Below are positions 8,974 to 61,171 of a stretch of DNA of 64,000 nucleotides, one piece after another. Position 1 is the stretch's first letter. The number at the start of each line of letters is the position of its first letter. The DNA is from Clostridia bacterium (lineage in GTDB: Bacteria; Bacillota; Clostridia; TANB77; UBA1234): positions 1-64,000 of the forward strand of contig JAFXCN010000013.1 in NCBI GenBank assembly GCA_017521465.1, given 5' to 3'. Both the position numbers and the translations under genes were made by a program. The notes under the pieces are model-generated. The model was given only the letters and a program-made list of their open reading frames with translations. It ran no database searches and had not been told where the DNA came from.

Positions 8974-9054
8974 ATGTATATACACAGAAAATTTGATTAT
9001 CATGGCAAATTGCTGTAACGTAATTCAAAAGTAGCAAGCAAGCTTGCCACAGTG

Positions 9055-9145
9055 AAAAGATAATAGCGAATAGTGAAAAGTAGAAATTTGCGTGCCGTTT
9101 TAAACCGTTTTTTACTATTCACTATTCACTATTAGTTATTCACTG
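9055..9145. repeat. Family A TATTCACTATTCACT repeats
   Basis: Several copies of AGTGAAAA/AATAGTGAA and the reverse ACTATTCACTATTCACTATT either side of AAACCGTTTT, which could fold into a hairpin after metG. The same motif recurs at 13128, 22556, 39928, 51743, 55085 and 60395. Confidence 0.65.
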
Positions 9146-12860: not shown

Positions 12861-12973
12861 TGATTTCATTCGATACAAGCATTTCACATGATATACCTTA
12901 CAGTAAAAATATCTTTTTTCTTTATTCATTATTCTTTAATTCTTTGCATATATATTCTATCGGAGGTGTTTTT

Positions 12974-13126
12974 ATGGATAATGAAACTCTTATGAAAATG
13001 TTTTTAAATATGATGGGGACTATGAGTGACAAAGAAATTGAATCTGCTCTTGAAAAAGCAAAATCACTGATGAGCGCAAAAGATTATGATAAGCTGGTTG
13101 CACTAGTGCAGGAGAAGAGAAAATAG
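12974..13126 (+). CDS. Small acidic/helical protein, 50 aa
   Basis: ATG at 12974 with CGGAGGTG 5 bases upstream; longer upstream starts have no RBS. The sequence (MDNETLMKMFLNMMGTMSDK..) looks like two amphipathic helices with a charged C terminus (VALVQEKRK). No membrane segment. It is followed by a family A hairpin and another small gene beginning MDN. Function unknown. Confidence 0.65.
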   Translation: MDNETLMKMFLNMMGTMSDKEIESALEKAKSLMSAKDYDKLVALVQEKRK

Positions 13127-13127
13127 T

Positions 13128-13198
13128 AGTAAAAAAAAGAATAAAGAATAGGTAATAAATAATATTTATTCATTATTCTCTATTCTTTATTCTTTATA
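13128..13198. repeat. Family A hairpin-forming repeat
   Basis: AAAGAATAAAGAATA at the left and TATTCTTTATTCTTTATA at the right form a long inverted repeat around TAATAAATAATATTTATTCATTA. Likely works as a terminator of the 12974 gene. Confidence 0.55.
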
Positions 13199-25164: not shown

Positions 25165-25240
25165 AGAGTGTGGAAAACTGGAGGTGAAAAAAAATCGATT
25201 TTTATATCGATTTTTTCGCACTTCCATTTTCCACACTTCG
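25165..25240. repeat. Family D palindromic element (copy 1), probable terminator
   Basis: GAGTGTGGAAAA..GGAGGTG at the left pairs with CACTTCC.TTTTCCACACTTC at the right, around TCGATTTTTATATCGA. Copies at 35126-35200 and 55005-55080 keep GGAAGTG/CACCTCC arms and the TCG..CGA core. Probably terminates the abrB-like transcript. Confidence 0.7.
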
Positions 25241-32886: not shown

Positions 32887-32924
32887 TGTAAAAAAAGAGA
32901 TAATTTTGAAAAAATTTGAATATT

Positions 32925-33150
32925 TGTGTCCGGGAAAAAATGAACGCTGACAGGATTTTTCTGTCGGACACAAATATTCGCCGAGCGGACGTTTGTGTCC
33001 GACACAAAGTGTTCGCTGGGTGGACGTTTGTGTCCGACGCAAAGTGTTCGCTGGGTGGACGTTTGTGTCTGACGAAAAGTGTTCGCTGAGTGGACGTTTG
33101 TGTCCGACGAAAAGTGTTCGCTGGGTGGACGTTTGTGTCCGACGAAAAGT
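32925..33150. repeat. Family C 35-bp tandem array, main copy
   Basis: GTTCGCTGGGTGGACG recurs at 33011, 33046, 33081 (CTGAG variant) and 33116, with a diverged unit at 32976, so the period is exactly 35 bp. Each unit has GGACGTTTGTGTCC, a GGAC/GTCC inverted repeat. Whole units are conserved, so there are no unique spacers. Reverse-orientation relatives lie at 12705-12860. Confidence 0.85.
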
Positions 33151-35025: not shown

Positions 35026-35125
35026 TATTATGTTAATATTTTGTGTGTTTTATATACCTCCATATGTTTGAAACATTTTTAGTCGGACATTTTTGTTCAA
35101 CGCACGACTATTTTATCGTTCGCAT

Positions 35126-35200
35126 GTGAAAAGGAAGTGCGCAAAAAGCGACATAAAAATCGCTTTTTGTTCACCTCCTTTTTACACACTCACTTTTTCG
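35126..35200. repeat. Family D palindromic element, copy 2
   Basis: GGAAGTGCGCAAAAAGCGA / TCGCTTTTTGTTCACCTCC arms around CATAAAAA, flanked by TGAAAA and TTTTTACACACTC. Related to 25165-25240 and 55005-55080. Confidence 0.7.
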
Positions 35201-37574: not shown

Positions 37575-39848
37575 TTATTCTATAATTTTTAAATCTGCAA
37601 ATTTTGCCATTAATCTCTTTGTTCCAGCTTTTTCAAAAGAAATTTCTATTTTTAGATCATCATCTTCTGGCTCAATATTAGTAATCGTTCCTGTCCCAAA
37701 TTTTTTGTGTTGTATAGTTTGACCAATTTCAAACTTACCTAAGTCAACTGTTTCATCTGCATTTATTTTTTGCAAAAAGCTTTCCGCCGTTCTAAAAGCA
37801 AATGCACTTTGAGGTGTCTGTACACTTTTGCCAAATGTGTAAATAGCATTGTCTATATTGCTTTCATATCTTTCATAACTTCCGTAATTATCATAATAAT
37901 TTTCTTCAACTTGCTTTTTCTTCTTTACTTCACCATCCATTAATTCACTCGAAACTTCTGTTAAAAATCTTGATGGCATTGCATAAGATGTACTTCCAAA
38001 AATGGTTCTTGATTTTGCACAAGTAAGATATAGATTTTCTTTTGCTCTTGTTATTCCTACATAGCAAAGTCTTCTCTCTTCTTCTATTTCAGCTTCTTCT
38101 CCTATTGAACGATAACTTGGAAATAGTCCATCTTCCATTCCTACCATAAATACATTTTTAAATTCTAGTCCTTTTGCAGTATGTAACGTCATTAAAAGTA
38201 CATTTTCTTGTTCTTCATCTACATTATCTAAGTCTGTAACTAACGCTAAATTTTCCAAGAAGTCTATTAATGTGTTTTCTGCATTTTGTTCTTCGAAGTC
38301 TATTACTACATTTAAAAATTCACCTAAGTTTTCAATTCTTCCTTCGGCTTCTGTTGTCTTTTCATTTTCAAGCATTTGCATATAACCAGACTCTTTTAAA
38401 ATTCTAGTTGTTAATTTTTCTATGCTTGTTATATCTTCTTGCATTTTTAATATAAAATTTGCAAAATCTTTTAAAGAAGCGTTTGCTCTTGTTGCTACAT
38501 ACTTATCTACATCTTTTATAACATCAAACATTGACATGTTTAATCTTTCTGCTGTTTCTTCTACATGCTCTAGTGTTGTTTTTCCAATTCCTCTTTTTGG
38601 CTCATTTATAATTCTTTTCAAACTAACATTGTCATTTGTATTTGCAACTAATCTTAAATAAGCGATTATGTCTTTTATTTCTTTTCTTTCATAGAATTTT
38701 TGTCCACCAACAACCTTATATGGAATACCTTCTCTCATCAAAATTTCTTCGAATACACGTGATTGAGCATTAGTTCTATATAAAATTGTAAAATCTGAAT
38801 ATGGATAATATTCTTCTCTTTTAAGTGATTTTATTTGTGAAATCACATAGTTAGCCTCTTCATATTCATCGTTACCTTGATAGAATTTTGGTTTACTACC
38901 ATCATCATTTTCTGTCCATAATTTTTTATCAACATTTCCTTTGTTGTTTTTTATTACAGCATTTGCAAGTGTAAGAATTTTTTTAGTTGATCTATAGTTT
39001 TGCTCTAATTTTATAATCTTTGTATCTGCATAATTTTTTTCGAAATTAAGAATGTTTGTAATATCCGCGCCTCTAAATTTATAAATACTTTGTTGGTCAT
39101 CACCAACTACGCAGATATTCTTACTCTCTCTTGCTAGTAAATTAATTAACATATCTTGTGATTTGTTTGTATCTTGATACTCATCTACTAAAATATATTT
39201 AAATTTATTTTGATAATATTCTAATACTTCTTCGTTTTCTTTAAATATTTTTATAGTATGGTTTATTATATCGTCAAAATCTACTGCATTATTTTTTCTT
39301 AGTTTTTCTTGATATAATGAATATACTTTTGAGACTTTTCCAAGTCTGTAATCAGAGGCATACATATTGTCGTATTTTATAGTATCTATCATGTCGTTTT
39401 TGGCTTTACTTATTTCACCCATTAAATATTTATCGCCAAATAATTTATCATCTAAATTTAATTCTTTTATACATTCTTTTATTATTGTTTTTGAATCTGT
39501 TGTATCAAAAATTAAGAAGTTTCTATCAAATCCTAATCTTTCAATTTCTCTTCTCAAAATTCTTACACATACAGAGTGGAATGTTCCAACCCACATATCT
39601 TTTGCGACATCCTCACCAAGAATTTTTTCTATTCTTTCTTTCATTTCTTTTGCAGCTTTATTTGTAAATGTTATTGCCAATACATTCCATGGGTTTACAT
39701 TATTTTCTGAAATAAGATGAGCAACTCTATGTGTTAAAACTCTTGTCTTACCGCTTCCTGCCCCTGCTATAACTAAAAGAGGACCGTTAACATGAGTAAC
39801 GGCCTCGTATTGTTCTTTATTTAATCCTTCTAATATATTATTTTGCAT
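37575..39848 (-). CDS. pcrA: ATP-dependent DNA helicase PcrA (UvrD family)
   Basis: 757 residues. SF1A helicase motifs in order: GAGSGKTRVLTHRV (Walker A), ITFTNKAAKEMKERI, VDEYQDTN (Walker B), VGDDQQSIYKFRG, KLEQNYRS, and LMTLHTAKGLEFKNVFMVGM..GLFP. The C-terminal FEIGQTIQHKKFGTGTITNI is the PcrA-type Tudor domain that binds RNA polymerase. Acts in DNA repair and removal of RecA or stalled transcription complexes. Monocistronic. Confidence 0.96.
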   Translation of the reverse strand: MQNNILEGLNKEQYEAVTHVNGPLLVIAGAGSGKTRVLTHRVAHLISENNVNPWNVLAITFTNKAAKEMKERIEKILGEDVAKDMWVGTFHSVCVRILRREIERLGFDRNFLIFDTTDSKTIIKECIKELNLDDKLFGDKYLMGEISKAKNDMIDTIKYDNMYASDYRLGKVSKVYSLYQEKLRKNNAVDFDDIINHTIKIFKENEEVLEYYQNKFKYILVDEYQDTNKSQDMLINLLARESKNICVVGDDQQSIYKFRGADITNILNFEKNYADTKIIKLEQNYRSTKKILTLANAVIKNNKGNVDKKLWTENDDGSKPKFYQGNDEYEEANYVISQIKSLKREEYYPYSDFTILYRTNAQSRVFEEILMREGIPYKVVGGQKFYERKEIKDIIAYLRLVANTNDNVSLKRIINEPKRGIGKTTLEHVEETAERLNMSMFDVIKDVDKYVATRANASLKDFANFILKMQEDITSIEKLTTRILKESGYMQMLENEKTTEAEGRIENLGEFLNVVIDFEEQNAENTLIDFLENLALVTDLDNVDEEQENVLLMTLHTAKGLEFKNVFMVGMEDGLFPSYRSIGEEAEIEEERRLCYVGITRAKENLYLTCAKSRTIFGSTSYAMPSRFLTEVSSELMDGEVKKKKQVEENYYDNYGSYERYESNIDNAIYTFGKSVQTPQSAFAFRTAESFLQKINADETVDLGKFEIGQTIQHKKFGTGTITNIEPEDDDLKIEISFEKAGTKRLMAKFADLKIIE

Positions 39849-39927: not shown

Positions 39928-40012
39928 AAAAAAAAGAATAATGAATAATGAATAAATAATAATTGATAAATATTATTTTTTACCTATTATTTATTCACTA
40001 TTCTTTATGTTG
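39928..40012. repeat. Family A repeat with terminator-like hairpin
   Basis: AAGAATAATGAATAATGAATA on the left and CTATTATTTATTCACTATTC on the right form an inverted repeat downstream of the GH94 gene. Confidence 0.6.
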
Positions 40013-55004: not shown

Positions 55005-55167
55005 GTGTTCGAAAAGAGGCAACAAAACAGGAGATGAATCAAAATCGATTTTTATATCTATTTTGTCGCACTTCCTTTTTGCATCCCAAAATATGAATGA
55101 GTAGTGAATAGTAGAAAAAGAAACGACAATGAATAGTTAATAGTGAATAGTGAATAATGAATAGTAC
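55005..55167. repeat. Family D element followed by family A motifs
   Basis: GGAGATGAATCAAAATCGAT..TTTTGTCGCACTTCC (diverged family D), then several AATAGTGAATAGTGAATAATG units (family A). Confidence 0.65.
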
Positions 55168-59131: not shown

Positions 59132-59899
59132 TTATTTTATCTTATTATTTTTTATTACTTCTTTTGCTAAATTAGTATATGCTTCTGCACCTTTTGAATG
59201 TTTGTCGTATAATGCAATTGGAAGTCCAAAACTTGGCGCTTCACTTAATCTTACATTTCTTGGAATAACACTTCTATATACTTTATTTCCAAAATATTTT
59301 CTAACTTCTTCTATAACTTGCATCGACAGATTTGTTCTTGCATCATACATTGTAAGTGCTACACCTTCAACAGCCAATGTTTTATTTAAATGTTTTTGTA
59401 CTAAGTCTATTGTACTCATTAATTGCCCTAATCCTTCTAATGCATAATATTCACATTGAATAGGAACTAAAACTGTATCAGAAGCAGTTAAAGCATTTAA
59501 TGTTACTAATCCTAATGATGGAGGACAATCTATAATTATAAAATCATATTCTTCCTTTACATTTTCTAAAGCTTCTTTTAATCTTTGTTCTCTTGAAAGT
59601 TGAGAAACCAATTGAACTTCAGCTCCTGCTAAATCTATATTAGAAGCACATACATCTAAATTATCTACAGCACTTTTTTGTATAACTTCTTTTATATCAG
59701 TTTGATTTATAATTACATCATATGTAGATTTTTCTACATTTTTATTTGCACCAGCCCCACTTGTTGCATTACCTTGTGGATCTGCATCTATTAACAAAAC
59801 TTTCTTTTTTTGTAAAGCTAAGCATGCGCTTAAATTAACTGCGGTTGTAGTCTTTCCTACCCCACCTTTTTGGTTTGCTATCGAAATAATTTTTCCCAT
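59132..59899 (-). CDS. parA: Chromosome-partitioning ATPase ParA (Soj)
   Basis: 255 residues. Deviant Walker A KGGVGKTTTAVNLSACLA, VLLIDADPQGNATSGAG, YDFIIIDCPPSLGLVTLNAL and the Soj-type C terminus (SVIPRNVRLSEAPSFGLPI). Works with ParB to segregate origins and regulates DnaA. RBS ACGGAGGTAGAA. Starts 22 bases downstream of a parS site; -10-like TATAAT at 59964-59969. Confidence 0.97.
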   Translation of the reverse strand: MGKIISIANQKGGVGKTTTAVNLSACLALQKKKVLLIDADPQGNATSGAGANKNVEKSTYDVIINQTDIKEVIQKSAVDNLDVCASNIDLAGAEVQLVSQLSREQRLKEALENVKEEYDFIIIDCPPSLGLVTLNALTASDTVLVPIQCEYYALEGLGQLMSTIDLVQKHLNKTLAVEGVALTMYDARTNLSMQVIEEVRKYFGNKVYRSVIPRNVRLSEAPSFGLPIALYDKHSKGAEAYTNLAKEVIKNNKIK

Positions 59900-59920: not shown

Positions 59921-59936
59921 TGTTTCACGTGAAACA
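59921..59936. promoter_or_regulatory. parS site upstream of parA
   Basis: Perfect TGTTTCACGTGAAACA between the parA promoter and the ATG, so ParB binding should affect parAB transcription. Confidence 0.95.
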
Positions 59937-60050
59937 TTTCGTTTTCTTTTGTTTTACAAAATAATTATATATGTTGATTTAGGATTTGTATAGAGTTTTT
60001 GGAAAATAAACACAATATATTATTAAAGAAACATTTGTTATATTTCAATT

Positions 60051-60247
60051 ATGAGCATAAAAATGATTTATTTTCACTAAACGTCCGCTTGCAACAGTTT
60101 CTAGGAAGTTATTGACGACATTCTTTAAAAAAATTTTTGGTATAGGCTACGCACCATAAAATTTTTCTTAAAGAATGGAACCTCAATTTTCAAAGAAACT
60201 GTATGCTTCACTTCCGAAATCGTTCAACTAAATAATTTTTATGCTCA
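60051..60247. other. ~200-bp nested inverted-repeat element between two parS sites
   Basis: The outer arms ATGAGCATAAAAAT.ATTTA (60051-60070) and TAAAT.ATTTTTATGCTCAT (60228-60247) match over ~23 bases with two mismatches. Inside are CAGTTTCT/AGAAACTG (60095/60194) and CATTCTTTAA/TTAAAGAATG (60119/60168) stems around GGTATAGGCTACGCACC. This rod-like nesting, ending in ATTTTTTG, fits a structured RNA (6S-like in form) or a MITE; no transposase or ORF. Identity unknown. Confidence 0.65.
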
Positions 60248-60258
60248 TTTTTTGATAT

Positions 60259-60274
60259 TGTTTCACGTGAAACA
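60259..60274. promoter_or_regulatory. parS site
   Basis: Perfect TGTTTCACGTGAAACA, 12 bp after the inverted-repeat element. Confidence 0.95.
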
Positions 60275-60394
60275 TATAATCTTAATAAACTTAATTTTTT
60301 TGTTAGAAATTGTAGTAAGATGAATTTTAGTGAGAATAAACAATTTATGTTTAGGAAAAATAGACAGGATTGTTTTACATGCATCTATAACGCA

Positions 60395-60432: not shown

Positions 60433-60438
60433 TAAAAC

Positions 60439-60468
60439 AAAAAGAAGAACGTTTAAGTTCTTCTTTTT
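60439..60468 (-). terminator. Bidirectional terminator after rsmG
   Basis: AAAAAGAAGAAC-gtttaa-GTTCTTCTTTTT at the end of rsmG. Confidence 0.85.
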
Positions 60469-61171
60469 ATTTTATCGGTTGTTTTGCTGGCGTTCCAGCT
60501 TTTCTTGGATATTGTTTTGGTGTTTCTTTTACTTTCTTTACTACTATTATATTTCTCTCTATATCTGTATCTGGAATAACAAAATTTTCTATCTTCTCTA
60601 TTTCACCACCAAGTATTTCTAAAGCTTTTTTTGCCTCTTCTACTTCTTCTATATTGTTTCCCTTCATACAAATAAATTTACCACCTACTTTTACAAAAGG
60701 TAAACACAATTCTAACAATGTAGACATGTTTGCAACAGCTCTAGCCGTTGCAACATCATACTTTTCTCTACTTTTTAAATCTTTTGCAATATCCTCTGCT
60801 CGTCCATGAATACATATTGCATTTTCTATTTTATTTTCGTTTAAAACTTCTTGCAAAAACACTATTCTTTTATTTAGAGAATCTAATAATGTTAGATTTA
60901 TATCCTCTCTTGCTATTTTTATTGGAATACCCGGAAACCCCGCACCAGTTCCAACATCAATAATAGAGCTGTTCTTGTCTATATATTTTTCAATTGTTAA
61001 TGAGTCTATAAAATGTTTTATAATAATATCTTCATCAGCAGTAATCGCTGTTAAATTTATTTTTTCATTCCATTCTTTTAATAATTCTTTATACTTTATA
61101 AATTTATCGATTTGTTCTTCACTCAAAGAAATATTAATTTTATCTGCAAATTTCTTTAATAAAGTTTTCAT
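60467..61171 (-). CDS. rsmG: 16S rRNA (guanine527-N7)-methyltransferase
   Basis: 234 residues. GidB motifs: KEWNEKINLTAI, HFIDSLTI, SSIIDVGTGAGFPGIPIKIA (SAM motif), VTARAVANMSTLLELCLP-like segment (DVATARAVANMSTLLEL) and GGKFICMKGNN. C-terminal tail is Lys/Pro-rich (YPRKAGTPAKQPIK), as usual. RBS ATGGAGGAATT. Ordered after mnmG as in most Firmicutes. Confidence 0.97.
   Translation of the reverse strand: MKTLLKKFADKINISLSEEQIDKFIKYKELLKEWNEKINLTAITADEDIIIKHFIDSLTIEKYIDKNSSIIDVGTGAGFPGIPIKIAREDINLTLLDSLNKRIVFLQEVLNENKIENAICIHGRAEDIAKDLKSREKYDVATARAVANMSTLLELCLPFVKVGGKFICMKGNNIEEVEEAKKALEILGGEIEKIENFVIPDTDIERNIIVVKKVKETPKQYPRKAGTPAKQPIK

Follow-up and report, generated by a model that had tools for sequence, protein, structure and literature searches.

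Insertion that replaces a hairpin target is already known for IS1272 and for one composite transposon: IS1272 and TnSha1 target hairpins, lose part or all of the hairpin and leave no target duplication (PMC5678879, PMC4923244). Here, we examined a hairpin-forming sequence beside parA in a Clostridia bacterium, within a window (the whole 64,000-nucleotide stretch that was analysed, C16:1-64000) taken from a draft host assembly of 1.40 Mb in 26 contigs. Our findings support, with high confidence, its assignment as a non-coding MITE, leaving aside how it inserted. The joint claim of a MITE and of insertion directed by hairpins, drawn from nine full copies and from pre-insertion hairpins that we infer, is held less firmly, as the probable account.

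An inverted-repeat search of the window places an outer stem at 60051-60073/60226-60248 (arms of 23 nt, 91% complementary) and two inner stems with arms at 60094-60107/60189-60202 and 60119-60138/60158-60177, the latter closing the innermost stem-loop of the element (60119-60177), in which pairing is kept and sequence differs between subfamilies. The outer stem of about 23 bp and the two inner stems described in the first-pass annotation are thus present at that place, and they fold far beyond chance on both strands, with RNA minimum free energies of -60.9 kcal/mol (plus strand) and -68.9 kcal/mol (minus strand), z scores of -6.7 and -7.1, respectively, and none of 200 shuffles equally stable. 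The repeated element proper is 60058-60241, the core common to the other copies, with ends TAAAAATGATTTATTT and AAATAATTTTTA. The two plus-strand segments outside it, ATGAGCA (60051-60057) and TGCTCAT (60242-60248), pair with each other, are absent from other copies, and represent site-specific flank extending the outer stem, presumably the left and right remnants of a target hairpin. The interval originally reported ends at 60274 because it took in a second parS (60259-60274), a separate feature. No ORF of at least 60 amino acids, and no transposase gene, lies inside the element.

A MITE had been offered as an alternative at the outset, and this is borne out: the sequence recurs at scattered sites and carries terminal inverted repeats. 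Searching the host genome recovered three full copies in addition to the one in the window, four in all, and one partial copy of what we call family A, dispersed and with unrelated flanks. The other full copies are 74-89% identical to the window copy (C10:50597-50779, 89%; C3:35645-35827, 77%; C6:37766-37945, 74%), and the partial copy (C22:10732-10841) is 75% identical. The element measures about 182 bp, with terminal inverted repeats of 14-16 bp; AAAATNATTTRTTT is the terminal inverted repeat at both family A ends, and the ends of family B are related. This sister family B, reached via a pattern search of the host genome with one element end, comprises five full copies, each about 153 bp long, at unrelated sites, the others being 91-96% identical to the reference copy, and a truncated family B end lies beside the window copy (60294-60346, minus strand, 85% identity to family B positions 2-54). 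Families A and B match at either end and over about 45 bp of each arm; their centres differ. The centre of family B (e.g. G000:C10:63655-63807, L026) holds sequences that resemble the subterminal parts of the element itself, the right and the left one standing head to tail; a tandem or circular form may have left them behind. Among the genomes searched, the element was found only in its source bacterium: no full copy turned up in 57 close relatives or, with scoring limited to the top two candidates in each genome, among up to 385 genomes of the order, and the plasmid and phage collections gave no match. Patterns of the element ends, run over the host genome and 375 genomes of the order, returned the known copies plus isolated weak matches only. 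A left-end scan of genome contigs gave 11 scattered matches, and two viral-contig matches proved to come from a single viral sequence, of which the part that was read contains no second end.

The core boundary of the nine full copies (families A and B) was set by similarity among them. Beyond this core the flanking sequence varies among copies, and in any one copy the two sides are close to reverse complements of each other, as in AAACC/GGTTT, CTCAAAGCA/TGTTTTGAG, ACAACTG/CAGTTGT, and others, including the ATGAGCA/TGCTCAT pair that makes up the outermost 7 bp of the stem in the window copy. Counted over 8 bp in all nine copies, 56 of the 72 positions are complementary; randomly paired positions in AT-rich surroundings give 21.0 (sd 3.9), and 0 of 22222 simulated sets reach 56. 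A stricter control, which accounts for any common motif by permuting right flanks among the copies of each family, gives 36.9 matches versus the observed 56 (p ~1.5e-4). Pairing is weaker in the family A copies on C10 (4/8) and C6 (5/8). The half-sites have a weak motif in common, roughly YTCAAA, part of which could reflect sequence preference instead of structure. The target duplications that might be expected of a MITE, in which they are common though not invariable, are absent, with the inverted complementarity of the flanks found in their place: no exact direct repeat occurs at the boundary in six of the nine copies, and the other three have 2 bp, as self-complementary 2-mers. An IS630-type TA target duplication was also considered and rejected; it fits some family A copies and not family B (CC/GG, CA/TG), and a search of the host assembly found no PF13358 transposase.

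We suggest that the element is a non-autonomous MITE that a transposase acting in trans would have moved, and that it may have inserted centrally in small hairpins or palindromes that were already there, with no target duplication. The halves of the target stem would stay on either side of the inserted element, so that the outer stem of the window copy would be longer by 7 bp. The whole element folds end to end as a single long imperfect hairpin. By analogy, the flank pattern appears to match IS1272-type hairpin-targeting, target-replacing transposition. In the 26-contig draft host assembly, no matches to the transposase families PF13751, PF05598 or PF13358 were found. Hairpin targeting occurs within this bacterial order, as six IS1182-type loci with PF13751 (L062, L065, L067, L069, L071, L073) indicate: there, a whole hairpin of 27-35 bp is directly repeated on both sides, as if it were a target duplication. 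Among 30 IS1182-type loci from the 385 genomes, none has ends like those of the MITE clearly above background, and the element is therefore not filed as an IS1182 member. Given the different outcome at the relatives' loci and the lack of matching ends or transposase, our claim is limited to an IS1272-like way of working, as distinct from IS1182 membership. A further, tentative possibility, which we put forward with more doubt than belief, is that the MITE families form a lineage-specific pair whose transposase recognises hairpins and substitutes the insert for the loop with no duplication, each insertion making the hairpin larger; new elements repeatedly landing in old centres would explain the common arms and unrelated centres of families A and B.

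The chief rival to hairpin-directed insertion is that a MITE of the usual kind went into AT-rich sites and that its flanks were made complementary later, by template switching at the long hairpin during replication. Such switching, where it happens at imperfect palindromes, is reported to homogenize arms and to be able to create and maintain hairpins (PMC8794818, PMC8604942, PMC7202029), and paired changes are also seen in stems inside the element: in an alignment of the four family A sequences, 91.5% of cells pair and 11 pairs are altered on both sides, on a structure taken from one copy. However, template switching would need to act at the extreme ends of nearly every copy, those of family B included, which are internally 91-96% identical, and it leaves both the lack of a consistent direct duplication and the weak half-site motif unexplained. 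We consider it unlikely. The arms of the element do change together, as the aligned copies show, which may be due to selection, acting at the RNA or the DNA level, or to correction between arms. As the four aligned family A sequences are related and the structure comes from one of them, the covariation control is a weak one.

The same changes bear on a multicopy structured RNA, with copies retained for use of a transcript from the better-folding minus strand. The same strand folds better in all nine copies, which are of common descent, and 18 cells have both-side changes versus a shuffled mean of 8.5. Against this, the element has no Rfam match at gathering score, no full copy was found in the relatives searched, its neighbourhoods are unrelated, some copies are truncated, and the centres of families A and B are wholly different; such an RNA is improbable. 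Elsewhere in the window, 38014-38111 (minus strand) matches Rfam RF03531 (n00280) with 74.2 bits; this family is annotated as an sRNA of Clostridioides difficile that is contained in a helicase gene.

The position of the element, between parS sites at 59921 and 60259 and upstream of parA, was confirmed from the sequence. On the minus strand the order is rsmG (60467-61171), a terminator-like hairpin found by inverted-repeat search (60433-60474), the remnants of two other repeats, parS, the element, a parA promoter-like site, parS, and parA (59132-59899). Both parS sites are palindromes reading TGTTTCACGTGAAACA; the one in the parA leader (59921-59936), or a one-base variant, precedes parA in several genomes of the same family. 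The putative parA promoter, TATACA-17-TATAAT (59964-59992, minus strand), appears intact, the element core starts about 66 bp upstream of it, and a similar promoter-like sequence stands before parA in G002, G004 and others on by-eye comparison. Since the element contains no gene and has the rsmG terminator on one side and a seemingly intact parA promoter on the other, it is, judging by position, most likely a neutral passenger with no effect on parA. A centromere-related DNA structure working with ParB/parS, also proposed initially, would suit a seat between two parS sites and adjoining parA. Yet further copies lie at other places in the genome, and in relatives the rsmG-parA intergenic regions that allow comparison lack the element, though several keep parS or its variant near parA, which makes a centromeric role very improbable. 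Large hairpins, unrelated in sequence, also stand between rsmG and parA in other species of the family (L094, L095, L096, L111); that of G009 (L096) has arms of more than 40 bp with few mismatches. The large hairpin that the relative G002 has at the same place was set aside, being unrelated in sequence; no second copy of it was found in 238 kb of the G002 genome.

The 6S-type RNA first suggested by the rod-like fold and the T run at one end can be dismissed as having next to no chance: no 6S family of Rfam matches even when E is relaxed to 10, one genome carries four full copies, and the T run read as an RNA end is site-specific flank outside the element. As a mobile repeat whose copies appear to have entered hairpins, the element would thus be neither a 6S RNA gene nor part of a centromere.

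Other repeats occur in the same window, and stretches adding up to about a quarter of the host genome were read. A third palindromic repeat (rep3) of about 80 bp, with ends near GCATGTAAAA/TTTTACATGC, has more than a dozen copies in the approximately 384 kb sampled; three are in the window (25171-25233, 35120-35186, 55024-55084), and a 19-bp rep3 end lies at 60371-60389 (plus strand, 100% match). It is also seen in L120, L124-L127, L129, L130, L132 and L133, and a rep3 copy stands no more than about 60 bp from several of the MITE copies. AT-rich inverted repeats with TTCACTATTCACT-like and TTCATTATTC-like units are found at 9050-9145, 12914-13197 and 39938-40008, and GTCGGACACAAA-type repeats cluster in both orientations at 32918-33148.

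If hairpin-directed insertion holds, finding its signature in non-autonomous elements would extend this mode to MITEs and to another bacterial lineage. A search for flanks that are complementary in inverted, not direct, orientation would also offer a route to more of them, which MITE finders based on target duplications would miss. A rod-shaped intergenic fold near parS, moreover, is not necessarily an RNA gene.

Among known systems, the BOX, RUP and SPRITE elements of Streptococcus pneumoniae (PMC10969869) are alike by description, as small intergenic repeats that are often clustered and nested, in another lineage. Prokaryotic MITEs in general (PMC10969869) are likewise short, AT-rich, non-coding, intergenic and clustered, with terminal inverted repeats and a stable hairpin if transcribed; here, in contrast, there is no direct target duplication and the flanks are inverted-complementary. 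The six IS1182-type loci of the order resemble the MITE in having a hairpin as target, but duplicate the entire hairpin directly and have unlike ends (e.g. CAGAGTGTTGACAAAGT). IS1272 and TnSha1, of the IS1182 family in staphylococci, differ in that no transposase accompanies the MITE and that the target hairpins of the MITE are those that we infer; still, the likeness would comprise insertion at hairpins, no duplication, partial loss of the target and no fixed target sequence.
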